Notes under the pieces: model-generated
The model's input: only the letters and a program-made list of their open reading frames with translations
Told to the model about the DNA's origin: nothing
The model's database searches: none
Assembly: GCF_001705235.1 (NCBI RefSeq)
Contig: NZ_MCGV01000001.1
Location: 3,724,181-3,788,180 of the forward strand
DNA length: 64,000 nt
From: Clostridium pasteurianum
GTDB lineage: Bacteria; Bacillota; Clostridia; Clostridiales; Clostridiaceae
Direction of reading: 5' to 3'
Made by a program: the position numbers and the translations under genes
Shown: piece after piece, positions 11,230 through 60,106 of the stretch
How positions within the stretch are numbered: the stretch's first letter is position 1
How the letters are laid out: every line of letters starts with the position of its first letter

Positions 11230-11898
11230 TTGAATAAATTAAGAAAAGCAATATGTATCTTTGTAAGCTTAATTATAATTTTAACGTTGTTTGGGTGTGA
11301 AACAGATAAGGATACAGCTAAGGATTTTAAAGAGTACACTAAAGCTAAATATGCAATGAATTTTAAGATTAAGAGTATATCTCAAGGGTCAAGTTTCTTT
11401 GGTGAAGGCAGCTATCCTGATGAATGTGTAATTTATTCTGAAAATAATCCTTCTAAAAAATTTACAATAACTAAAAATCATTGCTATTTTGGTAAATCTA
11501 CTACATATAATGATGGATATTTTGCATCACTTGTAAGCAATTTGGTAAGTGAACGTATTAAAGGAATTATGGGAGATAACTTTAAAGATTTTAAATATTA
11601 TGTTGATATTTCAAGCGACATTATAAAAAAAGATAATGATATGAGTTTTGATTTGAATTCTGCTATAAGTAATCAGAAGGAAATGACAATTAATTTATAT
11701 GTTTTAGTTAATAGTGGAGAGAACTTTGATAAAAATCAAATGAATTCCAGGGTATACCAGTTTATGAATGAACTTGAGAATAGTAATTTAATAAATAAAG
11801 GAAATCATCATATAAATATTTACTTTCATTTTTATTCTGTAACTAATGAGGTTTTTAATAAAACAAATCCTAAAATTTTAAAGCATGGAGCAAAATAA
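11230..11898 (+). CDS. Type A lipoprotein, short form
   Basis: A 222-residue predicted lipoprotein with TTG start at 11230, 9 bp after AGAAAGGG. The lipobox is LFGC. It shares ERIKGIMGD, FKDFKYY, LVNSGENFDKNQ and VYQFMNELENSN with the other type A proteins but lacks their charged C-terminal tail of about 70 residues. Its stop codon lies inside the first bases of repeat R1 (AAAATAAC), so the truncation may have come with insertion of that element. Function unknown. Confidence 0.72.
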   Translation: MNKLRKAICIFVSLIIILTLFGCETDKDTAKDFKEYTKAKYAMNFKIKSISQGSSFFGEGSYPDECVIYSENNPSKKFTITKNHCYFGKSTTYNDGYFASLVSNLVSERIKGIMGDNFKDFKYYVDISSDIIKKDNDMSFDLNSAISNQKEMTINLYVLVNSGENFDKNQMNSRVYQFMNELENSNLINKGNHHINIYFHFYSVTNEVFNKTNPKILKHGAK

Positions 11899-12076
11899 CA
11901 TTACTGAAGGAACATTAAAAAAATCCTATAAATCTAAGATGAAAAAATCATAAAATCCTAAGATATTTTAATAACTCCCTATCGGTCAGACAAATTAAAA
12001 TATCTAAGGATTTTACGATTTTTTCACCAAGATTTATTAGAATTTTTTTAAATCGTTCCTTCAGTAATGTTATTTT
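11892..12076 (+). repeat. R1: oriented 3'-UTR palindrome (A to B on + strand)
   Basis: A 185-bp imperfect palindrome. The ends AAAATAACATTACTGAAGGAAC and its complement pair over more than 20 bp, and the arms continue for about 75 bp. Arm A carries GAACATTAAAA and arm B carries GAACGATTTAAA (read inward). The centre is AACTCCCTATCGGTCAGAC. It includes the stop codon of the upstream + strand gene. The short companion module follows at about 12088-12125 (ATTCCTCCGTGCCTACGGAAT). Confidence 0.85.
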
Positions 12077-12082
12077 GATTTA

Positions 12083-12125
12083 AATGTAAAGCAAGGGAAA
12101 AATTCCTCCGTGCCTACGGAATTTA
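12083..12125 (+). repeat. Companion module of R1
   Basis: AAAGCAAGGGAAAAATTCC followed by TCCGTGCCTACGGAATTT. CCGTGCCTACGG can form a small hairpin. The same module follows R2 (about 12914-12955), R4 (degenerate, about 18668-18740) and each unit of the R7 array, always on the B-arm side. Confidence 0.7.
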
Positions 12126-12259
12126 ATATATCAAGATTAATAGGAAATTATGATACCAGAAGTGAATTGTATTTTTAATATCATGGTACTGTTAGAATCT
12201 ATAAAAAACACTTATATTTATAAATGAATAATGATTAAATAAAGTGAGATGATGAAAAT

Positions 12260-12745
12260 ATGGGGTTAGAACTTGTGCCATATTCAAATGATTATATTAA
12301 ATTTATTGAAAAGTGGGAGAGTACTAAAGAATTATCTAAGTATTTGTCTCATACTAGGCCGCAGTATTTAAGAGAATCGGATTTAGCTCTTGAAAAGCAC
12401 ACATTATTTTTTATGATAAAATTTGACGAATCAATAATAGGTGCTGCATGGCTTGAAAATATAACTGAAAATAATGGAAAACTTGGAATTTATATTGCTG
12501 ATGTGAACTGCAGAGGAAAGGGCATAGGGAGTGAAGTAATAAGAATTTTAAAGGAAAAGGCATTTAAAGAAATGAAACTTAGTAAAATATATTTAAATGT
12601 TCGTGAGACAAACAAGAGAGCCATTAGCTGTTATAAAAAATGTGGATTTGAAATAATTAAAAAGTATCCTAAAAAGCATTTTTCGGATTCTTCTTACCAG
12701 GGCGTATATGAGATGGAGCAAAATAACAGTGCTTTGGAACATTAA
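12260..12745 (+). CDS. GNAT family N-acetyltransferase
   Basis: A 161-residue acetyltransferase of the RimJ/RimL-like GNAT group. The acetyl-CoA binding motif A is visible as CRGKGIGSEVIR near residues 93-104, followed by LNVRETNKRAISCYKKCGFE, typical of the last beta strand and helix. Substrate unknown. The final eight codons and the stop (from CAA AAT AAC) are supplied by repeat R2, so the C-terminus has been rewritten by the element. The start at 12260 has only a weak ribosome site (GAGATGATG). Confidence 0.85.
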   Translation: MGLELVPYSNDYIKFIEKWESTKELSKYLSHTRPQYLRESDLALEKHTLFFMIKFDESIIGAAWLENITENNGKLGIYIADVNCRGKGIGSEVIRILKEKAFKEMKLSKIYLNVRETNKRAISCYKKCGFEIIKKYPKKHFSDSSYQGVYEMEQNNSALEH

Positions 12746-12906
12746 AAAAAGTCTATAAATCTAAGGCTAAAAAATCATAAAATCCTAAGAGTTTTAATAA
12801 CTCGCTAAAAAAATGCTCAAACAAATTAAAACTCTAAGTATTTTATGATTTTTTAACCAAGATTTATTAGACTTTTTTTAAATCATTCCTTCAGCACTGT
12901 TATTTT
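12720..12906 (+). repeat. R2: oriented 3'-UTR palindrome (A to B on + strand)
   Basis: A 187-bp imperfect palindrome closely related to R1. Arm A begins AAAATAACAGTGC and carries GGAACATTAAA; arm B carries GGAATGATTTAAA (read inward). The centre is AACTCGCTAAAAAAATGCTC. It overlaps the end of the GNAT gene. A companion module follows at about 12914-12955. Confidence 0.85.
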
Positions 12907-13170
12907 GATTTAAGGGTAAAGCAAGGAAGAAATTCCTTCGTACCTACGGAATTTCAGGTATGATTAATAGAATATTATAAGGCTCTGGCTTTACAGATTG
13001 TTCTCCTGTAATAAGATATCAGGGTATTATAAAAGAATTTTTTAATTAACGAATCAAAGTTATTAATCGTAAACATTAAGAGCGCCTGTATTTTATAAAG
13101 AAGGATAATGAGCTTCGCCCAAACCTCGTATATGATAATATTCATTATACTTTTTTTAAATCGTTCCTTA
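12746..13170. other. Non-coding stretch between R2 and R3
   Basis: After R2 and its companion module there is no convincing gene. A 34-bp segment at 13101-13134 (GCCCAAACCTCGTATATG core) recurs at 60845-60878. A solitary B-arm piece (TTTTTTTAAATCGTTCC) adjoins R3 at about 13152-13169. A short minus-strand frame here runs through the repeats and is not considered a gene. Confidence 0.6.
13101..13134 (+). repeat. 34-bp dispersed repeat, first copy
   Basis: AAGGATAATGAGCTTCGCCC followed by AAACCTCGTATATG. It differs from the copy at 60845 at two positions in the hairpin arms. It lies in the gene-free stretch between R2 and R3. Confidence 0.6.
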
Positions 13171-13364
13171 AGAGAAGTAACAGTATTTTGGAAACAATTT
13201 AAATAAAACTCAATAAGACTTTGCTCCAAATAATGAAAAGACTTAGAAATTTTAATTTGTTTGAGCTTTTTTTCAGCGAGTTATTAAAATTTCTTAGTAT
13301 TTTCATTATTTGGAGCTTAGTCTTATGAGCTTTATTTAATGTTTCCAAATACTGTTACTTCTCT
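13171..13364 (-). repeat. R3: oriented 3'-UTR palindrome (A to B on - strand)
   Basis: An imperfect palindrome of about 194 bp with ends AGAGAAGTAACAG and CTGTTACTTCTCT. Read on the minus strand, arm A (GGAAACATTAAATAAAG) follows directly on the stop codon of the AICAR transformylase gene, the centre is AACTCGCTGAAAAAAAGCTC, and arm B (GGAAACAATTTAAATAAAAC, read inward) comes last. Confidence 0.85.
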
Positions 13365-14539
13365 TAGTGATGGAACAACCTTACTTTGGAGAATGCCATT
13401 ACCATGCCGTAATTGTCGCAGGCTTCGATGACAACATCATCCCTTATAGAACCTCCAGGTTGAACGATATATTTTACACCGCTTTTAGCAGCTCTGTCTA
13501 TATTGTCGCTGAAAGGGAAAAATGCATCTGAGCCCAGTGAAACATTTTTAAGATTTGAAAGCCATTTATCTTTTTCTTCTTTTGAAAGTCTCTTAGGTAT
13601 GGATTTTAAAACTCTTCCCCAGCCTACTGTTTCAGCATCAGTAACATCGTCACGAAGGTATTGATCTATTAAGTTGTCTCTATCAGGTCTTGAAATGCCT
13701 TCTTTAAAAGGAAGATTTAATACTGCTTCATGCTGTCTTAAGAACCATATATCTGCCTTTGAAGCAGCAAGTCTTGTACAGTGTACTCTGGACTGCTGTC
13801 CTGCTCCAACACCGATTACCTGACCGTCTAGGGCAAAGCATACAGAATTTGATTGAGTATACTTTAAAGTTATCATAGAAATTATTAAATCACGCTTTGC
13901 TGATTCTGGAAGGTTTTTGTCCTTAGTTACTATATCTTGAAGTAAGCTTTCATTTAAAGGTGTTAGATTTCTTTTTTGTTCAAAAGTAATTCCGTAAATT
14001 TCTCTTCTTTCAATTACAGCTGGTTCATAATCAGGATCAATTTTTATTATAGTGTAATTTCCTTTTTTCTTTGTCTTTAAGATTTCTAATGCCTCAGGTT
14101 CGTAGTCTGGTGCTATTATACCGTCGGAAACGGATTTTTTTAGTATCTTCGCAGTAGCAACATCAACTTTATCACTTAAAGCGGCAAAGTCTCCATAAGA
14201 GGACATTCTATCAGCACCTCTTGCTCTTGAGTATGCAATTGCTGCTGGAGTTAATTCAGTGCCTTCTACTAAATATGATTTTTTAAGGGCATCACTTAGT
14301 GGAACAGCGGTACCTACGCCTGCTGGACTTACGTGTTTAAAAGATGCAGCAGAAACAAGACCTGTAGCTTTTCTTAATTCTTTTACAAGTTGCCATGAGT
14401 TTAGTGCGTCCATGAAATTTATGTATCCTGGTCTGCCGTTTAGTACTTCAAGGGGTAAAACTCCTTTATTTACATATATTCTAGCTGGACTCTGTTGAGG
14501 GTTACATCCATATTTTAGTTTTATTTCTGAAACTTTCAT
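13364..14539 (-). CDS. Stand-alone AICAR transformylase (PurH C-terminal domain homologue)
   Basis: A 391-residue protein matching only the AICAR formyltransferase domain of PurH; the N-terminal IMP cyclohydrolase domain (about 200 residues) is absent. Visible motifs are YGCNPQQ near the start, the catalytic Lys-His pair in SFKHVSPAG, GVGAGQQSRV, SDAFFPF and QPGGSIRD. It would transfer a formyl group from 10-formyl-THF to AICAR (ZMP) in purine synthesis. AGGAGG precedes the ATG. It is under a ZTP riboswitch that senses its own substrate, ZMP/ZTP. The cyclohydrolase must be encoded elsewhere, for example by a full-length PurH or PurO. The stop codon abuts repeat R3. Confidence 0.92.
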   Translation of the reverse strand: MKVSEIKLKYGCNPQQSPARIYVNKGVLPLEVLNGRPGYINFMDALNSWQLVKELRKATGLVSAASFKHVSPAGVGTAVPLSDALKKSYLVEGTELTPAAIAYSRARGADRMSSYGDFAALSDKVDVATAKILKKSVSDGIIAPDYEPEALEILKTKKKGNYTIIKIDPDYEPAVIERREIYGITFEQKRNLTPLNESLLQDIVTKDKNLPESAKRDLIISMITLKYTQSNSVCFALDGQVIGVGAGQQSRVHCTRLAASKADIWFLRQHEAVLNLPFKEGISRPDRDNLIDQYLRDDVTDAETVGWGRVLKSIPKRLSKEEKDKWLSNLKNVSLGSDAFFPFSDNIDRAAKSGVKYIVQPGGSIRDDVVIEACDNYGMVMAFSKVRLFHH

Positions 14540-14566
14540 TTATACATCCTCCTAAAAATTAAATAC

Positions 14567-14605
14567 AAAAAAAGCCTGAGTAAATCACATACAATTCACC
14601 CAGGC
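14567..14605 (-). terminator. Intrinsic terminator of the ZTP riboswitch
   Basis: On the minus strand GCCTGGGTGAAT and ATTTACTCAGGC pair and are followed by seven T. The 5' arm reuses the CCGCCTGGG strand of the ZTP aptamer, so ligand binding and terminator formation are mutually exclusive: an ON switch. Confidence 0.85.
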
Positions 14606-14672
14606 GGTCGATTAAATATAGATTGTGTTTCCTATGGTAGACTCCATTTCCGCCAGTCACACAACCTTCTAG
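14596..14672 (-). ncRNA. ZTP (pfl) riboswitch
   Basis: The minus-strand RNA shows the conserved pieces of the pfl motif in order: GUUGUGUGACUGGCGGA, a short hairpin with UGGAGUCUACCAUA, GGAAACACAA closing the first helix, and CGACCGCCUGGGU forming the pseudoknot hairpin. It lies directly upstream of the AICAR transformylase gene, a classic ZTP target. Confidence 0.93.
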
Positions 14673-14682
14673 TTTTAATAAA

Positions 14683-14711
14683 ATTATATAATAGCATAAC
14701 TTATAAGTCAA
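14683..14711 (-). promoter_or_regulatory. Sigma-A type promoter of the ZTP riboswitch transcript
   Basis: On the minus strand TTGACT (14711-14706) and TATAAT (14688-14683) are separated by exactly 17 bp. The start of transcription would fall just before the ZTP aptamer. Confidence 0.8.
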
Positions 14712-14712
14712 A

Positions 14713-14967
14713 TCATTTGTTGAGTTTTTTACTATTTACTTCCTTTATTTTATTTACAATGTGATCATAGCCCTTTGGGGAATGAGGGATGAGGCAATTT
14801 GAACAGTCCTTTATTCCATGGAAGTCTTTGTTATTTCCACCACAGTTTTCTAAAAAGTAAAGTGGGCAATAGCAAAAAAGGCAATTAAAGTTTTCTTCAT
14901 TTTTTACTTTGTGACAGGGGAAATATTCGCAGTTTTTGTGCTGAAAGAATTTGTAGTTTTCACTCAT
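14713..14967 (-). CDS. Cysteine-rich small domain protein (PF04071-like)
   Basis: An 84-residue protein with eight or nine Cys in patterns such as CEYFPCHK, CLFCYCPLYFLENCGG and CSNCLIPHS, which matches the cysteine-rich small domain often encoded beside cobalamin genes. It probably binds a metal or cluster. It overlaps the 3' end of the ABC ATPase gene by 8 bp and is the last gene of the cobalamin-riboswitch operon, which supports a role in corrinoid handling. Molecular function is unknown. Confidence 0.8.
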   Translation of the reverse strand: MSENYKFFQHKNCEYFPCHKVKNEENFNCLFCYCPLYFLENCGGNNKDFHGIKDCSNCLIPHSPKGYDHIVNKIKEVNSKKLNK

Positions 14968-17160: not shown

Positions 17161-17181
17161 AGCTATCCTCCAAAGTAAAGT

Positions 17182-18618
17182 TTAGTAATGTGAATAATGT
17201 TTTACAGTATAGCCTTTAAAGCTATCTGGATGTAATATAGATGCTAAATCTTCTATGAGTTCATCAGTTTTATCTATAGATTGATAATAATCTTCACTAA
17301 AGCACCATACTTTTTTGTCTTTTACAGGTTTAATACTTTTAAGCACAGGAGCGGTAGTAAGCATTGATTTAACTGATGGTGTATATTTTTTTGTAGAGGC
17401 ATAGATTAATATGTCAGCATCTTTTGCTTTTGCGTAAAAATCTTCAAGAGTTATGTATCCACTTTCATTTTTGAAGTTTTTAAATATATAATTTCCGCCT
17501 GCCATTTGAATCATTTTTGCAGGATAAGAATTTTTTTCGGGTATATATACTTTTCCATTCTCAACTATTCCCCATGCAACGTTTGGTCGTTTTAATGAAG
17601 ATGTCTTTTTAGTTATAGCATGAACTTTTTTGACCATATCATTAAAGTACTTTTCAGCGGTATCTTCTTTGTTATAAAATGCCGATAAAAATTTTATCCA
17701 TTCTAATCTTCCAAGTGGATTTTCCTCTAGATATTCATTGTCAGAAGCATAATTTATTTTTAATTCATCGAATTTTTTCATCATATTGTTTAAACCATAA
17801 GTTCCTCCATAAAGAAATGCCATATCTGGTTTTGAAGATGAAATTTTTTCATAGTCAGGAGAATTATTATCTCCAACATAAGTTATAGAATTGTTTTTAA
17901 GACCATTTTGTATGTCTTTGATTTCCCATTCATTTTCTTTTGATGTAACGCTCTTTATACTGCCTAATTCATTTAGCGGTTTCAACAAAGTACCTTGAGT
18001 AGTTGATGCACACAATACATTTGTTACAGGTGTAGTAACTATAGTGTCATTTTTGTATTCATCTGGGACAGCTTTCCCTTTTGGTACAAGTATTAAGACT
18101 TTGTTATTTCCGTCAGTTACTTTTTTAAGTCCACCTCTTAGGTATTTAATGCTAAATGCTTTTGTGTATTTTAAAGGCATTTCTGTTTCGATGTTAAGCT
18201 TCCCATTTGAGTAATCTAATCTAGCGTCCATTACATCACTTAAGAAGTCCATTGGGACATACATATCGTTATTTTTAATAGTAGGTACGGTACTCATTTT
18301 TACTACAGTGGTAGCTTTGGTCTTCAGGGAAGTTACATAAGCTGTATCGCTGCCTGATGTAATTTTTAAAGTTTCATCAGGATCTGATATGTTGGCAGTT
18401 TTGCCATTTAGTGAATATTTTCCATTTACGCATTTGTAAGCGTCTTTTAGCGAAACATAAACTTTACCATTATAATTCATAATAGATGCGCTGGTCTTTT
18501 TGGAGCTTGGTTCATTAGCTGTAGGAGTTTTATTTGTACTGCTAGGAGTACATGAAGATAAAGCTAAACTGACTAAAACCAATAAAGAAATTACTAGTAT
18601 TTTGATTTTTTTGTACAT
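17182..18618 (-). CDS. Corrinoid-type ABC substrate-binding lipoprotein with N-terminal stalk domain
   Basis: A 478-residue lipoprotein: signal peptide with LSSC lipobox (Cys23), then residues about 45-155 with a copper-amine-oxidase-type stalk domain (KVYVSLKDAYKCV, MYVPMDFLSDVM, LDYSNGKL), then a FecB/BtuF-type periplasmic-binding fold (NVLCASTTQGTLLKPLNELG, PDMAFLYGG, VAWGIVENGKVYIP, ADILIYAST). GGAAGGAG precedes the ATG. It is the first gene of the operon. The stalk domain is unusual for a BtuF homologue and may lift the binding domain from the membrane or attach it to the wall. Repeat R4 lies in its mRNA leader. Confidence 0.88.
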   Translation of the reverse strand: MYKKIKILVISLLVLVSLALSSCTPSSTNKTPTANEPSSKKTSASIMNYNGKVYVSLKDAYKCVNGKYSLNGKTANISDPDETLKITSGSDTAYVTSLKTKATTVVKMSTVPTIKNNDMYVPMDFLSDVMDARLDYSNGKLNIETEMPLKYTKAFSIKYLRGGLKKVTDGNNKVLILVPKGKAVPDEYKNDTIVTTPVTNVLCASTTQGTLLKPLNELGSIKSVTSKENEWEIKDIQNGLKNNSITYVGDNNSPDYEKISSSKPDMAFLYGGTYGLNNMMKKFDELKINYASDNEYLEENPLGRLEWIKFLSAFYNKEDTAEKYFNDMVKKVHAITKKTSSLKRPNVAWGIVENGKVYIPEKNSYPAKMIQMAGGNYIFKNFKNESGYITLEDFYAKAKDADILIYASTKKYTPSVKSMLTTAPVLKSIKPVKDKKVWCFSEDYYQSIDKTDELIEDLASILHPDSFKGYTVKHYSHY

Positions 18619-18753
18619 TGTAAATCTCCTTCCTATTGTAAAGGGTCGTTAAATTAATAATTATAATTTCAAAAACAAGGGAAAAATTCCTCCGTGTCTA
18701 TGGTATTTTTCGCAGTGAAGCGGAGAAAAATTTACCTTGCTTTTATTCTAAAT

Positions 18754-18889
18754 GAAGTAATATTATTTTGGGAACGGTTTAAACAAAATTCAATAAGTCT
18801 TGTTCCAAATTATAAAAAGACTTAGTATTTTTATAATTGGGAGCTTAGACTTATGAGTTTTATTTAATGTCTCAAAATACTATTACTTC
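18754..18889 (-). repeat. R4: oriented palindrome in the riboswitch-to-gene leader
   Basis: An imperfect palindrome of about 136 bp with ends GAAGTAATA and TATTACTTC. On the minus strand it reads arm A (GACATTAAATAAAAC) to arm B (GGGAACGGTTTAAAC, read inward); the central loop seen in R3 and R6 is missing. A companion region follows at about 18668-18740 with two pairing blocks. It lies between the terminator of the cobalamin riboswitch and the start of the binding-protein gene, so it is transcribed whenever the operon is on. Confidence 0.8.
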
Positions 18890-18907
18890 TTCGGAAGATT
18901 GATGAAA

Positions 18908-18932
18908 ATAAAAAAACCTCGCTTATGCGGGG
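18908..18932 (-). terminator. Intrinsic terminator below the cobalamin riboswitch
   Basis: On the minus strand CCCCGC, loop ATAA and GCGAGG form a compact hairpin followed by TTTTTTTATTTT. It lies about 80 bp after the B12 box and about 290 bp before the gene start, and is the likely expression platform. Confidence 0.75.
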
Positions 18933-19011
18933 CGAAATTTTGTACATAAATATAACTAATATATCCCTATAGATTAATTTTGGGAATATTATCTTATGTT
19001 TATGGATTTTA

Positions 19012-19190
19012 CTTCCCTCCGAAGTTCCATAATACTTTAGGTAGGTCTCCTGACTTACAGTTTAACCTCTGCCATCCTTCCCAGAAAAATTCCCAGTGGA
19101 TATTGGCTTTGTACCTGCATACAGTAACGGGGGTTGTATTGGATTTTTACCAATTTCCCTATTAAACCTTAATTGGTGCCTAAAGCATAG
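19012..19190 (-). ncRNA. Cobalamin riboswitch
   Basis: The minus-strand RNA has the ordered cobalamin motifs: GGUUUAAUAGGGAA, GGUAAAAAUCC, ACAACCCCCGUUACUGU, a GAAGGAUGGCAGAGG-like segment, and the B12 box AGUCAGGAGACCUACC at 19055-19040. It stands upstream of the ABC uptake operon 18618-14713 and indicates repression of that operon by cobalamin. Confidence 0.93.
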
Positions 19191-19206
19191 CATTTAGTTT
19201 ATGGTT

Positions 19207-19235
19207 AGTATACCATGTTATTTTATAAATTACAA
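19207..19235 (-). promoter_or_regulatory. Sigma-A type promoter of the cobalamin operon
   Basis: On the minus strand TTGTAA (19235-19230) and TATACT (19212-19207) are 17 bp apart, ending about 15-20 bp before the riboswitch aptamer. Confidence 0.65.
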
Positions 19236-35754: not shown

Positions 35755-35875
35755 TTAATTAAGCCTCCTCTAAAAAGATTGTAAGTATATTGGATTATTT
35801 TGCCCACAAAAGAAAAATATATTCAAAGAGAAAAATTAAAGATAAGTAACAATATTTTAGAATACCAAAAATAAT

Positions 35876-36040
35876 TAAGAATTAAGAATGAAAAATTAAG
35901 AATGAAGGATGGTTTTCCGTCGCTTCTCTCCGGAAAAACTGATAATACATAAAAGAACATTTTTATCAGTGAAAATGGAAAGGATATAAGGTTGAAAATT
36001 TTTCGTAGTGTAACGGAGAAAAAGTCACCTCGACTTACTC
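35876..36040 (-). repeat. MITE-like end plus companion sequence next to R5
   Basis: ATTAAGAATTAAGAAT-type sequence (35877-35912), then a TTTTCCGTCGCTTC block, resemble the element at 8230-8400, including GTGTAACGGAGAAAAA at 36008-36023. The far end is not clearly present, so the copy is partial or merged with R5. Confidence 0.55.
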
Positions 36041-36047
36041 TCTAAGC

Positions 36048-36121
36048 GAAGTAATAGTGATTTGGAACAATTTAAAAAAATTCTAATAAATCTTTTTAAT
36101 GTTCCAAAGCATTATTACTTC
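36048..36121 (-). repeat. R5: short oriented palindrome after the patatin gene
   Basis: A 74-bp deleted member of the family. On the minus strand it reads GAAGTAATAATGC, arm A GGAACATTAAA, a short middle, then arm B (GGAACAATTTAAA, read inward) and GCATTATTACTTC-like pairing sequence. It begins 10 bp after the stop of the patatin gene. Confidence 0.75.
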
Positions 36122-36130
36122 CATTTATTT

Positions 36131-36985
36131 TTAATTTAGGAAGTTAATTAAGTTTTCATAGTTTTTTTCAGCATCTTTATACCCTTGTAAATATAATGAA
36201 TTTAATCTTTTTTGATTTTTTTCAACACGTCTTACATTGGGCGGAAGTTGGGGTCTTATAACAAATGCGCTGCCTTCATTTTCAAGCTTTTTTATATATG
36301 CTAAAGTTTCATTGTACAATTTATGTCTATTTAAAAGAGATTTACATAATCCTTTGAAATTAGAATATTTTTTAGAAAGAAGCCACTTATGATTGAAGGG
36401 TGCCTTTACGTAATTTGGATCTCTTGTGAGTATAATAACATTTTTTTTATTTCCGTCACTTATTGATTTTTTTATTGGTATTGGATCAGATATACCGCCG
36501 TCCATTAATATTTTATTATTTATTTTTACGGGTTTGGATATAAAAGGTAGACTGCTAGAAGCTCTTATAATATTTAAAATATCATCATTTGATGTTTTAT
36601 CAAAATAAACTTCATTTCCGGTTAAGCAATCGGTTGTTCCTATAATAAGTTTTTGAGGTGAGGATGAAAAAGTTTCAAAATCGAAAGGAACAAGTTTATT
36701 TGGTACTTCATCGAATATAAAATCCATGTTAAATATAGACCTATGCTTAATAAAATTTTTTATACTTATATATCTTGGATCTGGGGCTAAATCCACGGTT
36801 ACGGCCTTAGTTCTACCTCTTTGTTTTGACACGTATGAAGCAGCGTTACATGCGCCCATGGATACACCTGAGACATAAGGAAAGTATAAATTTTTATCCA
36901 TAAAAAAATCGAGTATTCCAGCTGTATATACGCCTCTCATACCACCGCCTTCTAATATGAGTCCAATATTATTCAATTTAAACAC
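36131..36985 (-). CDS. Patatin-like phospholipase
   Basis: A 284-residue cytoplasmic patatin-family hydrolase. It has the oxyanion-hole motif GLILEGGGMRGVYTAG, nucleophile Ser in GVSMGACN, and catalytic Asp in LMDGGISDPIP. It belongs to the bacterial YjjU/RssA-like group that cleaves acyl esters of lipids. Substrate not known. It is followed on its own strand by repeat R5. Confidence 0.92.
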   Translation of the reverse strand: MFKLNNIGLILEGGGMRGVYTAGILDFFMDKNLYFPYVSGVSMGACNAASYVSKQRGRTKAVTVDLAPDPRYISIKNFIKHRSIFNMDFIFDEVPNKLVPFDFETFSSSPQKLIIGTTDCLTGNEVYFDKTSNDDILNIIRASSSLPFISKPVKINNKILMDGGISDPIPIKKSISDGNKKNVIILTRDPNYVKAPFNHKWLLSKKYSNFKGLCKSLLNRHKLYNETLAYIKKLENEGSAFVIRPQLPPNVRRVEKNQKRLNSLYLQGYKDAEKNYENLINFLN

Positions 36986-38013: not shown

Positions 38014-39108
38014 TTGATAAAAAATAAGATAAAAATTTTAGGCGGTATTTGTAGTATTGTTTTAATTTTAGTTATATTATTAGGGATATTTCCGGGATCT
38101 AAAGCTTATATAGCATATTACTCTAACATAATGCATAAAAAGACGTTAAATAAAAGTTTCAATAATAAAATAAAATCGGGTGATTTATCTGTTGATTACA
38201 CTATAGATCAAACGCTTAAGGATGTAGATGGTATGAAGCTTAATACTGTGAATGTTCCTATTGAAGTTGATATATCTGATTTAAATGCAAAGTCTATATC
38301 TGTAAATAAACAAAGCGAAGAAAAGGCGAAAAAGCTTATTGATGAGTTAAATAAAAGAAATATAAATGTTATATTAGAACCATATCCATGGATAAATAAA
38401 GGACAGGATTATGAAACTTCAATGAAGCCTACAGATGTAAATAAATTTTTTAGTACATGGAAAAATGATGTTATTGGTAAAATTATAGATGAGGTTGCTG
38501 TACCTAAAAGAGTCGATGCTTTGTGTATTGCTTCAAATTTTGTTAATCTCGAAAATTACAGTGATAAGTGGTGTAATATAATAGATTTTGCAAGGAGCAA
38601 ATACAAAGGACTTATTACATATAAAACAAATTGGTGGTATACAGCTTCCTGGGATAATGAGTCAAAGGAAAAATTCAAAAAGAAACTTGATAACAAGATT
38701 TTTTCTAAGGTGGATTATATTTCTGTAGCAGCATATTTTGAGATTACAGGTAATGCTGTTAACAGTGTAGATTATATAAAAAACAGTCTTTATTCTACAA
38801 CAATAAATAGTAGGGGACAGAGGATTGTAGATGAATTGAATGAGCTGCATAAAAAATGGAATAAGCCAATTTTCTTTGGAGAGCTTGGTTTTCCAAGAAG
38901 AAATTATGCATCACAATATCCATGGAATCCGCAACCGTCTAATGTAGAGAATGGACAGGAACAGGCAAGATGTTTTGAAGCTTACAAGCTTGTTTTTACT
39001 CAAAAATGGTTCATGGGATTTTCTGTCTTTGCAATTGGCAATAAAGTAGGTGAAAAGAATTATTATCCGTCAAATGAAAGTAAAAAGGTCATAAGAGGAT
39101 GGTTTTAA
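38014..39108 (+). CDS. Membrane-anchored glycoside-hydrolase-like (GH113-like TIM barrel) protein
   Basis: A 364-residue protein with a single N-terminal membrane segment (residues 8-28) and an extracellular domain with TIM-barrel pattern: MKLNTVNVPIEV, NVILEPYPWI, DALCIASNFVNLENY, LITYKTNWWY, VDYISVAAYFEI, and FFGELGFPRR, whose Glu is a candidate catalytic residue. It is like GH113/GH5-type proteins but the assignment is not certain. TTG start behind GAGGT. It lies 43 bp after the HAD gene and may be co-transcribed. Repeat R6 follows its stop. Confidence 0.65.
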   Translation: MIKNKIKILGGICSIVLILVILLGIFPGSKAYIAYYSNIMHKKTLNKSFNNKIKSGDLSVDYTIDQTLKDVDGMKLNTVNVPIEVDISDLNAKSISVNKQSEEKAKKLIDELNKRNINVILEPYPWINKGQDYETSMKPTDVNKFFSTWKNDVIGKIIDEVAVPKRVDALCIASNFVNLENYSDKWCNIIDFARSKYKGLITYKTNWWYTASWDNESKEKFKKKLDNKIFSKVDYISVAAYFEITGNAVNSVDYIKNSLYSTTINSRGQRIVDELNELHKKWNKPIFFGELGFPRRNYASQYPWNPQPSNVENGQEQARCFEAYKLVFTQKWFMGFSVFAIGNKVGEKNYYPSNESKKVIRGWF

Positions 39109-39116
39109 AATAGTAT

Positions 39117-39304
39117 GAAGTAACAGTATTTTGAAACATTAAATAAAACGCATAAGACTAAGCCCAAAATAATGAAAAGACTAAGAAATTTTAATAACTC
39201 GCTGAAAAGAAGCTCAGACAAATTAAAATTACTAAGTCTTTTCATTATTTGGAGCAAAGTCTTATTGAGTTATATTTAAATCGTTCTTAAAATATTGTTA
39301 CTTC
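39117..39304 (+). repeat. R6: oriented 3'-UTR palindrome (A to B on + strand)
   Basis: A 188-bp imperfect palindrome with ends GAAGTAACAGTATTTTG and its near complement. Arm A GAAACATTAAATAAAACG, centre AACTCGCTGAAAAGAAGCTC, arm B GAACGATTTAAATATAAC (read inward). It begins 8 bp after the stop of the glycosidase-like gene. Confidence 0.85.
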
Positions 39305-39309
39305 ACGTA

Positions 39310-39583
39310 GAAGGTAAAGGCAAAGAATTTAGATTTTCTAAGGGGAAAGTGTGCCCAATTTGTGGCTCTGAAACTATATCAAGAAATGGTAAGTATAATG
39401 GTAAACAAAGATATATCTGCAACCTATAAAAGTAAGAAAACATTAGATAAGAGGCCTAAATATGCTAAGTACATGGTTAATGGATATTCTATTAGGAAGA
39501 GTGCTAAAGTTGTAGAAATTAATGTAGCACATTCGTATATCAAAATAAAAGACTTAAAAAATAGCGAGCCAATGTATGTATGA
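39310..39583 (+). pseudogene. Remnant of IS transposase (zinc-ribbon, IS1595-like)
   Basis: In one frame the segment reads CPICGSETISRNGKYNGKQR then YIC and a stop, which is the zinc-ribbon start of IS1/IS1595-type transposases. After a frame change near 39425 it continues YMVNGYSIRKSAKVVEI, the helix-turn-helix region of the same proteins. The catalytic DDE part is missing. The 73-residue open frame at 39362-39583 is the second half read with an out-of-frame start and is not a gene. Confidence 0.75.
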
Positions 39584-39716
39584 CATATGCGATATATTGT
39601 AAGTTATGTTACAATAAGTGTCATTAAAAACTATAATTTAATGGAAAATAGTAAAATATTGTTTACTAATTATGTTTTAAAATTAGATTGAATTTTATAA
39701 ATATGGAGGTTTATAG

Positions 39717-40247
39717 ATGTTAAGCAATAGAAAATTAGTTCTATATATTGCAACAAGTTTAGATGGTTACATAGCGACAGAAGATGATTCCTTGGAATGG
39801 TTGTTTAAAACTGAAGGTGAAGGAGATAATGGATATTCTGAATTCTACAATACAGTTGATACTATTCTAATTGGTAGAAGAACTTATGACTGGATTATTG
39901 AAAAAGAAAAAGGTAAATTTCCTTATAAGAATAAAAAGTGTTATGTATTTTCTAAATCAGAAAAAGGTAAGAATGAAAATGTAGAATTTATTAATCAAGA
40001 TGTAGTGGAATTTACAAATAAAATCAAAAGACTGGATGGAGGAAACATATGGCTTGTTGGCGGTGGTGTTCTTCTAAATTCTTTTATTAAAGAAAGGTTA
40101 GTTGACGAATTTATTATTACTATATCACCTACATTAATAGGTCATGGAATACCTTTATTTAAAAAAAATGATTTTGAGTTAGAACTAAAGTTAAAGGGGA
40201 TAAGGAGGTTCAATCAATTTGTTGAACTCCATTACAAGATGAAATAA
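39717..40247 (+). CDS. RibD C-terminal/dihydrofolate-reductase-like protein
   Basis: A 176-residue protein with RibD_C features: LVLYIATSLDGYIA at the N-terminus, TILIGRRTYDW (NADPH-binding), and IWLVGGGVLLNSFI near residue 105. It probably reduces a pterin- or pyrimidine-like substrate with NADPH; many members are annotated as dihydrofolate reductase family. ATGGAGG precedes the ATG. It converges on the folate-transporter gene, with the R7 array between them. Confidence 0.88.
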   Translation: MLSNRKLVLYIATSLDGYIATEDDSLEWLFKTEGEGDNGYSEFYNTVDTILIGRRTYDWIIEKEKGKFPYKNKKCYVFSKSEKGKNENVEFINQDVVEFTNKIKRLDGGNIWLVGGGVLLNSFIKERLVDEFIITISPTLIGHGIPLFKKNDFELELKLKGIRRFNQFVELHYKMK

Positions 40248-40249
40248 AA

Positions 40250-40926
40250 CAAGTTTAAGCCTAAAATTCCGTAGGCACGGAGGAATTTTTTCCTTGTTTT
40301 ACCCCTGAAGTGAATTAACATTGTTTAAGGAACAATTAAAAAGAATTCTAATAAATCTTGGTAAAAAAATCATAAAATGCTTAGAGTTTTGAATGATATC
40401 ATACATAAGGTTTGAACCACAGGTTAAAGACGACTAGTACATTAATTGATTAAAAGATAAATGAGTCTAAGCCTAAAATTCCGTAGGTACGAAGGAATTT
40501 TTTCCTTGTTTTACTTTCAAGTGAATTAATATTACTGAAGGGACAATTAAAAAAAGTTCTAATAAATCTTGGTAAAAGAATCATAAAATACTTAGAGTTT
40601 TGAATGGTATTATACATAAGGTTTGAGCCACAGCACAGATTAATGACGATTAGTACATTAATTTATTTAAACGAGAAATGAGTCTAAGCCTAAAATCCCG
40701 TAGGTACGGAGGAATTTTTTCCTTGTTTTACTTTCAAGTGAATTAACATTACCGAAGGGACAATTAAAAAAAGTTCTAATAAATCTTGGTAAAAAAATCA
40801 TAAAATACTTAGAGTTTTGAATTTGTTTGAACGTTAGTGAGTTATTCAAAACTCTTAGTATTTTATGATTTTTTTATCTTAGATTTATAGAACTTTTTTT
40901 ATGTCCCTTCGGTAATGTTAATTCAC
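40250..40926 (-). repeat. R7: palindrome plus tandem array of three companion/B-arm units
   Basis: The rightmost unit has a full palindrome (40738-40926) with perfect 24-bp ends (GTGAATTAACATTACCGAAG...). Its right end contains the stop codon of the folate-transporter gene. Read on the minus strand it is followed by the companion module (about 40684-40730), then by two more units that keep the B arm and companion but replace arm A with another sequence. The module start repeats at 40688, 40471 and 40259, periods 217 and 212 bp. The array fills the whole gap between two convergent genes. Confidence 0.85.
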
Positions 40927-41703
40927 CCCCAAAGCTTTTTTGTCTGCAAAATTATATAAATACATAAGCATTGATAACAAATATGCATTTAACATGGTCA
41001 TAAGAATTGTTTGTACAATTCTAGGAAGCCATAAAATCATGAAGCCACTTGCAGCTAAAGCTGGGGTAAAAACTAGCATGAAAATTGTATTTAAAGTTGA
41101 AACTATTATTCCTGAAATTCCAATTGACATTATGAGTTTAAAAAAATTATTGCATAAGTAATAATTTTTTTTCGATTTCTTTTCAATAATTTCATTTAAC
41201 ATGAAGACGGTCATGCCAAGTAATGCTATTAAGATAAAGCCAATACCTGTATACTGAGATTTTTTACCGAGACTAGTAAGTACTCTTGCAATAGGTAGGT
41301 TGTACAAAAATTTTATAAGTATATAATTGACCATTCCGGAAATGAAAATTATTGAGAAAAATAAGACGTATATTTTTTTCAATATGCTTATAGATTTTAA
41401 TTTTATATTTTTCCAAAATAGAGCAGGAAGAAAACCGGCAATTATATTTGTAAGTGTAAAAATAGGCATATAAGCTCCTGTCGGTTTCATTAGAAAACCG
41501 AGTATGTCACTGGCACCACCTGCAATAGCACCATAAAATGGTCCAAATAACAATCCTGGTAGAATGTAAAAAATAGCACTGAAGTTTATTTTCATAATCA
41601 CAATTCCACCACCAGTTAGTGAAATACCAATAGTTTTTAATATAATTGAAAGTGCTATACATAAAGCTGTAGTTATAAGGAATTTTGTACTTCTTTTATT
41701 CAT
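40918..41703 (-). CDS. folT: ECF transporter S component, folate type (FolT-like)
   Basis: A 261-residue membrane protein with about six segments. FGPFYGAIAGGASDILGFLM followed by GAYMPIFTLTNIIAGFLPA is the folate S-component pattern. It captures folate for the shared ECF ATPase module, which must be encoded elsewhere. It is longer than most S components because of a polar stretch near residues 150-190. It is under a THF riboswitch with a strong promoter. AGGAG precedes the ATG. The stop codon lies in repeat R7. Confidence 0.9.
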   Translation of the reverse strand: MNKRSTKFLITTALCIALSIILKTIGISLTGGGIVIMKINFSAIFYILPGLLFGPFYGAIAGGASDILGFLMKPTGAYMPIFTLTNIIAGFLPALFWKNIKLKSISILKKIYVLFFSIIFISGMVNYILIKFLYNLPIARVLTSLGKKSQYTGIGFILIALLGMTVFMLNEIIEKKSKKNYYLCNNFFKLIMSIGISGIIVSTLNTIFMLVFTPALAASGFMILWLPRIVQTILMTMLNAYLLSMLMYLYNFADKKALGVN

Positions 41704-41825: not shown

Positions 41826-41924
41826 GTAACAGCGGAAGCAACATTGCACCGCAAGACTAAGTCTTTTCGTTTAGAGACAACTTCCCATCCTCTAACACTT
41901 TACGCACAATATCTACTCTGCTAC
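41826..41924 (-). ncRNA. THF (tetrahydrofolate) riboswitch
   Basis: The closing helix pairs GUAGCAG (41924-41918) with CUGUUAC (41832-41826). Conserved internal pieces are GAGUAGA, GCGUAAAGUGU, GGAUGGGAAGUUGUCUC, ACGAA and GCGGUGCAAUGUUGCUUCCGCU. It stands upstream of a folate S component, the standard target. Confidence 0.92.
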
Positions 41925-54344: not shown

Positions 54345-54360
54345 AAGGGGAGAAATAGAT

Positions 54361-55236: not shown

Positions 55237-55252
55237 GGAATTTTTACAATAT

Positions 55253-58200
55253 ATGAAGGATATTAAAAGTAAGCTGAAAATTTTTTTGAATAAACATAGA
55301 TATGATTTTATATGTATATTAATATTATATTTATTAATAATTCTTATATTGAATCCCATATATAGAAGCGGACATATTGTTTTTAGTGATATAGATTTTG
55401 GATTTTCTTCAAAAGGTTATATGAATGAGATATTTGGAGCATGGAATGAAAGGTGGAGTACTTCTACATTGCTAAATGTGCCGCGTTTAATGTATATACT
55501 TCCATTTTATGCATTATCAATGGTATTTAATTATAGTGGAGCAGTATTCTTAAAAAGTTTTATTACAGGTATAATATTAATTTCTGGAACATCTATGTAT
55601 ATATTTTGCAATAGGCTTTTAAATATATATTTTATTAACAATAAGCTGCTAAAAAAGATTGTTATTATACCTGGGGCTTTGTATTATGCTATAAATCCAT
55701 GGGTTATAGTTAGAATACAACATGTTTATCTATTATGTGGATATAGCCTTTTTCCATTAATTATTATGTTTTATTTAAATATTTTCTATTATAGATTTGA
55801 AGAAACCATAATAGAGGATTATGACATACAAAGTACTAGGATTTATAAGAGAAATATATTTGATATGTTTATGCTAAGTGTTGTTTTTGCATTTAGTGCT
55901 GCTGCAATACATTATTTTTTTTACGGAATTATAGTTATATTTATTATAACTATTTTTATTTTGTTAAAATTGTCTTTAGAGTGTTTAGTGAAAAAGAAAT
56001 ACAACTTTAAATGCATAATGGTAAATTTTTTTAAAAAAGTGTTTATATTTATACCAATATTCATAGTTACAAATGCTTACTGGTTGTCTATGTATGTATT
56101 TAGTATTATTTTAAAGGCAGAGGTTACGCAGCATAATGTAAATGTAATTGATACTTTATTTTTATTTGGAAAATACAGTTCTATAAAAAATATACTTTAT
56201 TTAATATCATATTGGTGGCCTATGTTTGATATTAGAAGTCTTAGCATAAGTTTTTATATTTCAGGAGGTATAATTTTATTAATAATATTATATTCGATAA
56301 TATTTGAGATAAGACGGAAATATTTAATTTTATGTTTTACTGCACTTACTGGAATTTTTTTGATATTATCTACAGGACCTAATTTTGATTGGTTTTATAG
56401 CATGTTTGTAGGAATAAATAAACTTCCTGTTATAGGCAGCATATTTAGAGACTGTAATAAAATGGTAGCGATAATGGCATGTTTTTTAAGTGTACTCCTT
56501 ATATTTGGATTGTATTCCATTACCATAAGATTTAATAGGTTTAAATATGTTATGACGTTTTGCATTTTATTTACCACATTTATAATTGTGTGCTTGTTAG
56601 TATATATACATCCGTTTTATATACATTATATAAAGGGATTTTATAATCCTGTAAAGGAACCTAAAGAGTATATAGAATTGCAAAATAAATTAAAAAATAA
56701 AGGTTCTTTTAGCAGTAAGGTTTTATATCTACCTATTGCAGATAATATGCTGCAATCTAAAACAGGAGTTTCAACACCATACTGGAATGTAAATGGTGAA
56801 AAGTATGGAATGGAGAAGGCAACAGGTGATATACAAGTATATTCGTCTTCAAAAAACACTATATTTCAACATGAAGGCAATTCCATGAATATACAATATT
56901 ATATGAATTTCCTTCAATATTTAATGGATAGGGGCATGTCTATAAATATTGGTAAATTAATAAGTGCATTTGGAGTTAATCAATTTGTATATCATAAGGA
57001 ATACAATGGTCAAACTCAAAGACAGAATTTTAATAAAAAAATAATAAGCAAGGATTCGTCTATTAAAAAAACTTATGAAAATAAAATTGCGACTTGTTAT
57101 GATATTAAGAATAGCTTGCCATATTTATACAATGTACCTAAAAAGATATATACTCCATATGGCTTTGATAAATTAGAAAGTTATAATAGTATACCTAATT
57201 TTAATTTTAAGAATTTAGGTGTTATATTTTCGGCAATAGATAAAAAATCATGTATAGACATTTTGAATAAAGGTGATTACCTTGAAGCCAATAATATAAA
57301 TGATGTTTTAATGTGTAATTTGAAGCAAGATGATTATATAGTTCCTTTTGATAGTATTAATAGCTCTGATGCATATATGAACTGGGCTAAAACTTTGTGT
57401 CAAAATTCAGATTGGCTGTGGATTTTAAATTCACAGGATATAAATAATTTCCCATTTGATTTCGATTTTAATTCAGGAATAGTGTATACTTTTTCAAATA
57501 TGAAATTAAATGCGGCTCCTAATAAAGTAAATAAAATCAAGGGGAAAAATATAGTGAATTTTAAAGATATTTTAAAGAAAAATGATTTTTTTGTATCAGA
57601 GAATCCTTCTGAATATAAAATTGAGGCTGATGTAAAGGAAAAGAATAGTAGCGCACCATATGTAAAGGGTGAAATAGAAAAAGGTCAGTCAAATAATATC
57701 TGGGAAGTAGCTAAATCTGGTGTTTTAAGAGCTAAGGAAAATAATCCATATAAATTTAGGATAAATATTTCAGGCAAGAATACTAGTAAACTTCACTTTA
57801 AAGTTAAATATTTTGATACTAATATGCACGAAATATACAGCAGCTATGTTGTAAAACCATCAGATGATTGTGATTTTGATTCTATGGATTTTAATGGAGA
57901 GTGTGTATCTCCACCAGGAGCAAAGTACATGAGAATGGAACTCCTATGCTATAAAAATCCAAAGGAAAAAACTTATTGGAAGATTCATGACATCAATATA
58001 TACGATTTAAGTAAATATAAAATTTCTAATTCCTTTGATATGAACAAAAAACTCAAAAAACCTGAAAATGCAAAAGTCTATATAAGAGCCTTCGTTTCTA
58101 AAAAGGGTGGAAAACTTAAAATTACTATTGGAAACAAATCTGCCTATGTAGATACATTTAATTCTTATGAGAATCAGTTTAAATGGATTGAAGTTGGAAA

Positions 58201-59665
58201 GTTTCACTTTAATGCTGGAGATAATTCTATTAAGGTTGAAAACAAATCAGGTTTTAATGCGGTAAATTTGTTCACAGTGGTTTCTGATGATGAGTATAAT
58301 AATTTGAAAAAAAAGCTTTATAAAAAGGCTGATGAATGTAAGGTATTTTATGAACTTGAGGCAGAGAATAACTTTGAATATTCTGGAAATATTCAAAGCA
58401 GCAGGATATATCCTAAGTTAAGTATGGGGAGAAGCATAAGTTCTCAAAATGGTACTTTAAAAAGAAACGTAGACATAATAAAAGATGCAAATTATTCTTT
58501 TGTAATGAATATGAATGCTTTTAATGGAAATAACGGATATGTTACTTTTGAAATTAAAAATTTAAAGGATAATAGTACAACAACAAGGCAGATATCTAGC
58601 AGTGAATTTACTAAGATAAATAATGATAATGAAGTCGTAAATTTGAATAGTTTAAGTAATAATTTTCAGTATACATTAAAAAACATACCAGATCAAATGA
58701 GTTATTATAAGAGAATTGAATTAAAAGATATATATCTTAAAAAAGGAAAATATACAATTACAATAACATTTAATAGCTGTGCACCAACGTTAAGTGATTT
58801 TACTGATTTACATAAATTTAAATATAATGAGCAGGTAGATAAAAAGAGCAGTAACAAAAAAAACAATGCTAGAGTTTCAAAAGAAAAAATAAATGATTCA
58901 ATGATGGATAGTCACATTGATAAAGATGTTTTTGAAATAAATTTACAGAAAACAAAATCAGATGATTGGTATGATTATGCTTCTAAAAAAATGAATGTTA
59001 TAGAGCAAAATGAATATTTATTTGAGGTTTCAGTTATTTCAAAATATGTACATGATAGACATATGAAAATAGTATTTATGGACAAGGATTCTAGAGTTAT
59101 TTCAGATGTATATATTAATGATATAAATGAGAGGTTTAAAAACGATTGGAACTCATATGAGCAGGTGATAGAAGCTCCTAAAAAAGCATCATATATGCAA
59201 TTTCACATATTATGTAGAGGAAATAGTAGTAAAGATGGTTACATAGAGATGAAAAAGTATAATATTTATCATTATTCAGAATTAATATCTGTCGACAATT
59301 TAATAATGTTTGAGGGAAATAATTTTGATGAATTCTTTCCGTCTAAAGTAAAGGGGAAGAAAGTAAAATATTCAAGGGTAGATTCTATGAAGAGACTTTT
59401 GTCTATTTCTAATCCTAATAATGAAAAATTACTTATAAATTATTCAGAATCACCAACTCCTCTTTGGAATTTGAATTTAGATGGTGACAATGAGCGAGGG
59501 GACTTAGCCGTAAATGGAGTTACTTCAGGATTTATTACGAATAAAAATGGAAATGGAAGTATAAGTGTAATTCTTAGGAATATATATTATGGAAGTTTTA
59601 TATTTGAACTGATATTGACTTCTATAGGTATATTTATTTATAAAAAAATCTATAAAAATAAGTGA
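55253..59665 (+). CDS. Giant GT-C-like polytopic membrane protein with long extracellular region
   Basis: A 1470-residue protein. Residues 15-465 hold about 11-12 membrane segments; the first outer loop carries an acidic SDIDFGFS motif, as GT-C transferases do. Residues about 470-1435 are extracellular and include at least two beta-rich, carbohydrate-binding-like modules (near 820-920, SDDCDFDSMDFNGECV, and 1235-1345). A final membrane segment lies at 1445-1463. It resembles in layout the AftD/YfhO-like arabinosyl- or glycosyltransferases. It could modify or assemble the exported polysaccharide. Family assignment is inference. Confidence 0.65.
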   Translation: MKDIKSKLKIFLNKHRYDFICILILYLLIILILNPIYRSGHIVFSDIDFGFSSKGYMNEIFGAWNERWSTSTLLNVPRLMYILPFYALSMVFNYSGAVFLKSFITGIILISGTSMYIFCNRLLNIYFINNKLLKKIVIIPGALYYAINPWVIVRIQHVYLLCGYSLFPLIIMFYLNIFYYRFEETIIEDYDIQSTRIYKRNIFDMFMLSVVFAFSAAAIHYFFYGIIVIFIITIFILLKLSLECLVKKKYNFKCIMVNFFKKVFIFIPIFIVTNAYWLSMYVFSIILKAEVTQHNVNVIDTLFLFGKYSSIKNILYLISYWWPMFDIRSLSISFYISGGIILLIILYSIIFEIRRKYLILCFTALTGIFLILSTGPNFDWFYSMFVGINKLPVIGSIFRDCNKMVAIMACFLSVLLIFGLYSITIRFNRFKYVMTFCILFTTFIIVCLLVYIHPFYIHYIKGFYNPVKEPKEYIELQNKLKNKGSFSSKVLYLPIADNMLQSKTGVSTPYWNVNGEKYGMEKATGDIQVYSSSKNTIFQHEGNSMNIQYYMNFLQYLMDRGMSINIGKLISAFGVNQFVYHKEYNGQTQRQNFNKKIISKDSSIKKTYENKIATCYDIKNSLPYLYNVPKKIYTPYGFDKLESYNSIPNFNFKNLGVIFSAIDKKSCIDILNKGDYLEANNINDVLMCNLKQDDYIVPFDSINSSDAYMNWAKTLCQNSDWLWILNSQDINNFPFDFDFNSGIVYTFSNMKLNAAPNKVNKIKGKNIVNFKDILKKNDFFVSENPSEYKIEADVKEKNSSAPYVKGEIEKGQSNNIWEVAKSGVLRAKENNPYKFRINISGKNTSKLHFKVKYFDTNMHEIYSSYVVKPSDDCDFDSMDFNGECVSPPGAKYMRMELLCYKNPKEKTYWKIHDINIYDLSKYKISNSFDMNKKLKKPENAKVYIRAFVSKKGGKLKITIGNKSAYVDTFNSYENQFKWIEVGKFHFNAGDNSIKVENKSGFNAVNLFTVVSDDEYNNLKKKLYKKADECKVFYELEAENNFEYSGNIQSSRIYPKLSMGRSISSQNGTLKRNVDIIKDANYSFVMNMNAFNGNNGYVTFEIKNLKDNSTTTRQISSSEFTKINNDNEVVNLNSLSNNFQYTLKNIPDQMSYYKRIELKDIYLKKGKYTITITFNSCAPTLSDFTDLHKFKYNEQVDKKSSNKKNNARVSKEKINDSMMDSHIDKDVFEINLQKTKSDDWYDYASKKMNVIEQNEYLFEVSVISKYVHDRHMKIVFMDKDSRVISDVYINDINERFKNDWNSYEQVIEAPKKASYMQFHILCRGNSSKDGYIEMKKYNIYHYSELISVDNLIMFEGNNFDEFFPSKVKGKKVKYSRVDSMKRLLSISNPNNEKLLINYSESPTPLWNLNLDGDNERGDLAVNGVTSGFITNKNGNGSISVILRNIYYGSFIFELILTSIGIFIYKKIYKNK

Positions 59666-59925
59666 AACTTTATAAAACCACAAAAGAAGATTGTTACTCA
59701 TAAATGAGGTTTGGTTTCTGCGCATTATCTTTCTTAATCCAGTATAAGTATTTTCTAACTTACATGGACTTTGTCTGTACTGCTCATGCAAGTTAAAGAT
59801 TGCCTGCTTGAAGTTAAGAATAATAGGTTGAAATCCAAACTACGTGTATGATAATTTTATGACTTTTTCACCAATAGTTATTAGATTTTTTTTAAATTTC
59901 CATGCTTTTATTTTAAGCGAAGTAA
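59666..59925. other. Intergenic stretch with a solitary B-arm remnant
   Basis: No gene is evident. A piece at about 59862-59898 (TTATGACTTTTTCACCAATA, then TTATTAGATTTTTTTTAAAT) matches the B-arm half of R1 and R7. It is read on the + strand after the giant gene, without an A arm. Confidence 0.5.
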
Positions 59926-59926
59926 T

Positions 59927-60106
59927 AGTATTTTGGAAACGATTTAAATAAAGGTCAATAAGAATTGCTTCAAATTATAAAAAGACTTAGAAATTTTAAT
60001 TTGTTTGAGCTTTTTTCAGCGAGTTATTAAAATTTCTTAGCATTTTTATAATTCGAAGCTTAGACTTATGATTTTTATTTAATGTTTCAAAATACTATTA
60101 TTTTGC
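59927..60106 (-). repeat. R8: oriented 3'-UTR palindrome (A to B on - strand)
   Basis: An imperfect palindrome of about 180 bp. On the minus strand it starts at the stop codon of the TPR gene (TAGCAAAATAATAGTATTTTG), arm A GAAACATTAAATAAAA, centre AACTCGCTGAAAAAAGCTC, arm B GGAAACGATTTAAATAAAGG (read inward). Confidence 0.85.

Follow-up and report, generated by a model that had tools for sequence, protein, structure and literature searches.

The YPAL/RU-2 repeat of Yersinia is an intergenic palindromic repeat of ~168 bp, described as non-autonomous, co-transcribed with upstream genes and accompanied by target duplications of 3-26 bp (PMC2229807). The same source presents ERIC, RUP and Correia/NEMIS, which are miniature inverted-repeat transposable elements (MITEs), as short repeats with inverted ends and hairpin transcripts (PMC2229807). 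Here we analyze a family of imperfect palindromes in Clostridium pasteurianum, eight copies of which (R1-R8) lie in a stretch of 64,000 nucleotides, hereafter the window (positions 3724181-3788180 of contig C1 of a 4.68-Mb genome on two contigs, G000). Each palindrome has two distinguishable arms, A and B, on either side of a center. We consider it about 60% probable that R1-R8 are the ends of an apparently non-coding, MITE-like fold-back element, mobile now or recently, which delivers a structured hairpin to the 3′ untranslated region (3′UTR) of genes. What this analysis adds is that each palindrome represents one of the two ends of a fold-back element.

In placement the family resembles YPAL/RU-2. 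The Clostridium repeat is found just after stop codons (within 60 bp at 122 of the 152 sense centers, i.e., those where a gene reads into the A arm), and De Gregorio et al. (2006) reportedly showed that YPAL inserts at terminator-like sequences and shortly behind stop codons, and that transcript levels are then higher. The Clostridium element is set apart, by description, by the orientation rule of its outer end and by its element-borne stop; unlike YPAL, it is also two-ended and inverted, with two end types, a tail hairpin and a fixed tip loop, and no duplication was seen at the six pairs checked. It is short with inverted ends, like MITEs (26 pairs; 16 of the 18 typed pairs are heterotypic), whereas it differs from ERIC, RUP and Correia/NEMIS in that its ends are structured hairpins of ~190 nt placed at stop codons, with no TA duplication established. 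The REP/BIME repeats with their RAYT genes are likewise high-copy intergenic hairpins, but those of Clostridium are several times longer and no RAYT was found among the Y1_Tnp matches. Intrinsic terminators share the position right behind the stop codon and the compensatory evolution; the ~190-nt hairpin, in contrast, has no consistent GC stem and U-tract, and terminators were scored further downstream of it at 43 of 133 sites. The statement of the initial annotation that no named family fits can be kept insofar as no Rfam family matched the palindromes at gathering score (the window gave only three riboswitches). Rfam matches around R1-R3 were all sub-threshold, mostly to microRNA models, and no publication naming this repeat family was found in the literature library searched, publications containing the tip fragment being judged by title alone.

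Outer Ends at Stop Codons

The outer end of the element lies mostly at a stop codon and often supplies the stop itself. The palindrome-center pattern has 187 exact matches in G000 (91 forward and 96 reverse) against none for the reversed-pattern control, and R3 shares 89-96% identity with its 39 best-matching other copies (best 40 of 364 candidates scored). The second contig, C2 (191 kb), carries eight of the listed centers. The RNA fold of R3 has an energy of -97.1 kcal/mol, far below the mean of -28.0 for 200 shuffles (z = -17.2); together with the count and the identity, this rules out chance palindromes. Positions were listed for 169 of the 187 centers, and 170 centers were read in 120 of 122 planned regions, the open reading frames (ORFs) in all gene maps coming from a custom ORF caller and not from annotation. 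One of the 170 has no A-side ORF, which leaves 169 for orientation. A gene reads into the A arm at 152 of these 169, and in 122 of the 152 the stop codon of that gene is no more than 60 bp away from the A end. Many of the remaining 30 stand behind a first copy. There are 11 cases of the mirror arrangement, in which a gene reads toward the B end and stops no more than 60 bp from it; five of these are ORFs inside the element (122 vs. 11, P ~ 8×10−25). The sense rule that had been noted for the window, where A-to-B follows the transcript in all eight copies (seven behind a gene, R4 in a leader), holds across the 170 centers read when counted relative to the upstream gene. The stricter idea of a one-way orientation stands only for the A end facing the stop side, as both orientations exist in the form of inverted pairs.

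An element-borne stop is used in 58 cases (classed by offset). Among them, frame 0, which adds about two residues, accounts for 46 and the other frames for 4 and 8 (P = 8.5×10−13), a bias that could reflect either insertion phased to the stop codon or selection against longer tails. A junction exactly at TAA was considered and rejected, since GNGAAG before TAA is equally kept in all four position classes. On a more far-reaching reading, which is doubtful, the stop placement and the 46:4:8 frame distribution might point to a link between insertion and the end of translation or the 3′ ends of mRNAs, perhaps by way of an RNA intermediate.

The same arrangement was observed in two relatives, G001 (taken as C. 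hydrogenum) and G002 (taken as C. guangxiense), whose copy counts are lower bounds (best 40 candidates per genome). Sampled copies are in sense in 14 of 16 cases in G002 and 13 of 18 in G001, and 22 of these 27 sense copies lie within 12 bp of a stop codon or have the stop inside. When G000 copies are grouped by identity to their nearest relative, stop-proximal copies make up 49 of 64 at ≥93%, 64 of 71 at 86-93%, and 16 of 22 below 86%; in all, 28 of the 157 outward full hairpins lie away from a stop. The stop bias sets in early and does not build up steadily with age. Because the youngest copies are already stop-proximal in 49 of 64 cases, targeted insertion is favored over slow sorting. Ahead of start-facing copies, no tRNA was found at 21 loci, and known structured RNA was rejected as a common neighbor, the three riboswitch or T-box matches in 20 loci being none of them in sense and just upstream.

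A Two-Ended Element with a Conserved Fold

A complete element consists of two long imperfect hairpins, of types I and II, inverted around a variable center. Profile matches and gene maps reveal inverted pairs with the A arm outward on both flanks, 26 of which were listed (span 292-984 bp, some with tandem copies inside). By end type, 16 pairs are I-II, two are II-II and none is I-I, with 10 more having one untyped end. The B arm is followed by a linker (about GCTTAGNNTAAAGCAAGG) and then by a second hairpin in three variants, which go with the end type: type II carries v1 in 49 of 52 copies and type I carries v2 or v3 in 53 of 56, the tail variant of 36 further typed copies not being callable. 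The inverted heterotypic pairs place the A arm at the outside of a fold-back element with two ends. Such pairs are also found between divergent genes (L168, L187). Solo outward ends (118 clusters) outnumber inverted pairs (28). Among 66 co-directional clusters (outside the window, with a gene on both sides and gaps of up to 1500 bp), the stop-facing end stands alone in 50, the start-facing end alone in six and both are present in 10; the bias lies in which flank the outer end faces. Behind many stop-facing ends are tandem copies in which the B part is kept and the A part is missing, which would fit copying from the B side.

The fold of one strand is conserved, as seen in matched arm changes, fixed mismatches and the tip loop. 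The alignment comprises 68 of 71 non-redundant copies (three partial copies were left out), 16 of them from the two relatives, each less than 86% identical to one another by our own identity measure. It forms one long hairpin, in which 94.9% of cells pair (81.3% in shuffles; at most 54.2% when the structure is slid), two-sided changes occur at 44 of 63 pairs (27.1 in shuffles), and the covariation score is 0.375 (shuffled, 0.124). Covariation in the arms, on which the initial annotation had made a conserved RNA depend, is therefore present. Two A·A mismatches, at columns 95/147 and 71/170, are each kept in 67 of the 68 copies. The tip is a fixed internal loop, AACTC / TCARACAA, and the N-N′ pair that closes it is GC in 43 copies, AU in 19, CG in four and GU in two; sampling by center biases this loop conservation, and copies found by their arms in the relatives also keep the A·A mismatches and the tip loop.

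The tip extends beyond the genus. Exact center matches occur in Gastranaerophilales, Bacteroidota, Phascolarctobacterium and others, several contigs sharing a genome, and 35 of the 50 matches outside the genus top a hairpin (5-of-6 outer-pair criterion), compared with 77 of 2450 random sites. All 35 cross-phylum hairpins keep the N-N′ pair; their arms share no sequence with the Clostridium family by eye. Of 398 genomes of the phylum, two contain a looser form of the center pattern, G000 being one of the two. The cross-phylum copies have no sense bias (19 sense, 19 antisense and three without an A-side ORF). The presence of the tip in unrelated phyla without such a bias suggests that the tip is the widespread part and that the stop rule, among the copies examined, is peculiar to the Clostridium clade. 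An autonomous element beside these hairpins was also considered; no transposase was seen by eye among the 25 most recurrent proteins listed. It is doubtful, if worth entertaining, that the tip AATAACTC-N-C...G-N′-TCARACAAATT marks mobile hairpins of a single class that spans phyla and is read by one machinery, and that in the Clostridium clade this machinery, or selection, sets the outer end at the stop in frame 0. The motif provides a practical starting point in the search for the protein that recognizes the tip.

Movement and Rival Explanations

Copies differ between species of the genus. The center pattern occurs in three of 58 genomes around G000, all in the genus, and no copy turned up in G003, another member of the genus (best 40 of 76 candidates scored). 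Thirteen syntenic sites are empty in G003, namely twelve gene ends and the R4 leader (R1, R2 and R8 lie outside this comparison), and the genes there stop no more than a few codons away from the corresponding position in G000. Recent movement of the element is strongly suggested. A terminator-like hairpin is close by at 10 of the 13 empty sites by eye; the terminator scanner, which is insensitive, reported it at seven of 13. One site (L146-1730076) is a tight gene-gene junction with no terminator by eye, which leaves mobility targeted to terminators, one of the explanations offered for the window, as a possibility. Seen by eye, the A end in G000 is close to the point where the terminator starts or upstream of it, R4 being the exception. 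Replacement of native terminators was also considered, and is weakened by the terminators that appear to persist downstream at 43 of 133 sites.

With the outer end at the stop, a transcript running past the stop would carry the long hairpin as its 3′UTR. The molecular part of this reading, covering the enzyme, its target rule and what the hairpin does to the mRNA, we infer as follows. A recombinase or transposase acting in trans would recognize the hairpin end and insert it near a stop codon, usually ahead of the terminator. Once in the mRNA, the hairpin might serve as a 3′-end stabilizer, an RNase III substrate or a termination aid, and this role might help the stop-facing end to persist while the other end is lost.

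Several observations weigh against this reading. No transposase with matching ends was found in a search that covered only the Y1 family, and inspection by eye of six of the 26 listed inverted pairs revealed no target-site duplication. Since solo ends outnumber pairs, what moves is not necessarily the two-ended form. Stop proximity shows no steady rise with age, the age contrast (P = 0.04) compares two of three groups picked post hoc, and overall nearest-relative identity does not differ (P = 0.37). The cross-phylum copies lack the sense bias. Terminators were scored before the next gene at 43 of 133 stop-proximal hairpins (five of 133 when shuffled), and also at 31 of 158 control gene ends of the same regions and 10 of 26 in G003. 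Three insertion loci shared with the relatives are no more than biased sampling could give; at these loci (four hairpins), each relative's hairpin is closer to copies of its own species than to its counterpart, which makes conversion possible as well as fresh insertion.

If the palindromes were instead a host-owned 3′-end RNA element (terminator, stabilizer or processing signal), spread by duplication and held in sense purely by selection with no transposon involved, the sense bias and stop adjacency, the compensatory changes that preserve the structure, and the frame-0 stop in 46 of 58 cases against 4 and 8 would all be expected. We regard this as unlikely given the two-ended inverted elements between the divergent genes of L168 and L187, the 28 of 157 outward full hairpins away from stops, the canonical terminator scored inside the element in only 11 of 121 cases (20 of 121 with an earlier scanner version), and the lack of any copy found in G003 among the candidates scored there. 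The complementarity of the arms might also arise from template switching or repair within the palindrome (quasi-palindrome correction), the folded strand then having no function. Outer arms that are copy-specific yet complementary, as seen by comparing copies by eye, agree with this; such correction, however, should have removed the asymmetric tip loop and the A·A mismatches as well, yet the mismatches persist in 67 of 68 copies, and arm-found copies of other species keep the mismatches too, so that we hold it to be quite improbable.

A REP/RAYT or IS200/IS605-type system moving the element as folded single-stranded DNA would read just such imperfect hairpins with fixed mismatches, and two intact IS200 tnpA genes adjoin element copies. 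The Y1_Tnp matches in G000 consist of these two IS200-type genes and one broken fragment, with no RAYT gene among them, contrary to the REP-like mobility that had been suggested for the window. The protein scores 160.2 bits with the IS200-type model (cut-off 55) and 32.3 bits with the REP-associated model (cut-off 80). Both intact copies lie in the element linker after GCAA (L091 and L092, about 1293-2022; by eye), which marks them as insertions into the element's tail, and IS200 was rejected as the mobilizer; a system of this type is very improbable. A folded-strand recombination site like the integron attC would match in its overall anatomy and position, with a hairpin, fixed unpaired bases, a place just after the gene and one orientation, but gene order at the compared sites is conserved with G003, which argues against a cassette array, and the outer boxes are by eye unlike the RYYYAAC/GTTRRRY consensus, which makes this scarcely credible. 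Plasmids yielded no relatives of one 4.4-kb region, neither plasmids nor phages yielded any of R6, and a search of viral contigs with the GC form of the tip gave nothing.

The mobile fold-back element would be a clear case of a repeat family turned into a frequent gene 3′ end. Two sister species carry the family and in another species no copy was found, which allows a gene-by-gene comparison of effects on termination and mRNA decay.

The Eight Copies in the Window

All eight palindromes were recovered where they had been placed, R1-R4 and R6-R8 by profile search and R5 by eye. The type and tail assignments that follow were made by eye. The A end was said to reach the stop codon in five copies, and indeed R1, R2 and R7 contain the stop while R3 and R8 touch it. 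The arm motifs fared less well, GAACATTAAA of the A arm being exact in R1, R2 and R5 and in no other copy, and GAACGATTTAAA of the B arm in R1 and R6, with a third exact match at 13155-13166 just outside R3.

R1 (11891-12076, + strand) is a full hairpin with type II-like arms and contains the stop codon (11896-11898) of the gene at 11230-11898. Its tail (12075-12124, +), a linker GTAAAGCAAGG with a second hairpin of variant v1, is where many matches to G002 copies stop. R1 closes an array of tandem paralogous genes (8469-11898; repeat families D1, D2, D5, D7, D11, D12, D14 and D15). R2 (12718-12906, +), a full type II hairpin, contains the stop (12743-12745) of an acetyltransferase-like gene with family matches below cut-offs, and R3 (13173-13363, - strand), a full type I hairpin, touches the stop of the PRK07106-type gene at 13364-14539. 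The two probably form one two-ended element (12718-13363), with an ORF of 84 aa between them; the ORFs met in passing in elements are all short. A ZMP/ZTP riboswitch lies at 14591-14670 (-), above the Rfam gathering score.

R4 (18754-18889, -) is degenerate, with its center absent. It sits in a leader, between the terminator (by eye) of a cobalamin riboswitch (19023-19198, -, above gathering score) and that riboswitch's gene (17182-18618). R5 (~36044-36122, -; profile match 36046-36095) is a short copy of outer arms only, its center lost, which comes after the gene at 36131-36985 and has a tail on its B side.

R6 (39116-39305, +), a full type I hairpin, comes after the gene at 38014-39108. Directly after GGCAA in its linker begins a transposase-like remnant with a zinc-ribbon start (39304-39590; by eye), in the position that the IS200 copies occupy in their linkers; IS200 may thus insert preferentially into the linker that follows the palindrome. 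A different insertion, short and palindromic with AGGCATCT ends, breaks the B arm in L091 (about 1087-1250; by eye). R7 (40739-40926, -) is a full type II hairpin containing the stop codon of a folT-family gene (40918-41703), and a tetrahydrofolate riboswitch lies at 41828-41922 (-), above gathering score. Two tandem B-side partial copies lacking the A part were matched by the profile behind R7 (40522-40633 and 40311-40394, -). R8 (59917-60106, -), a full type I hairpin, touches the stop codon of the gene at 60106-60510.

Between R6 and R7, the segment 39521-40252 includes the gene 39717-40247, for which the counterpart in G003 is 89% identical but located elsewhere, syntenic matches being 72-80% identical; the segment may have been transferred. 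Two other dispersed repeats are present in the window, one at 8230-8309 and 35870-35949, rich in AATTAAGAAT, and one at 13078-13151 and 60822-60895, around ACCTCGTATATGATAA, which recurs in several B-side flanks.

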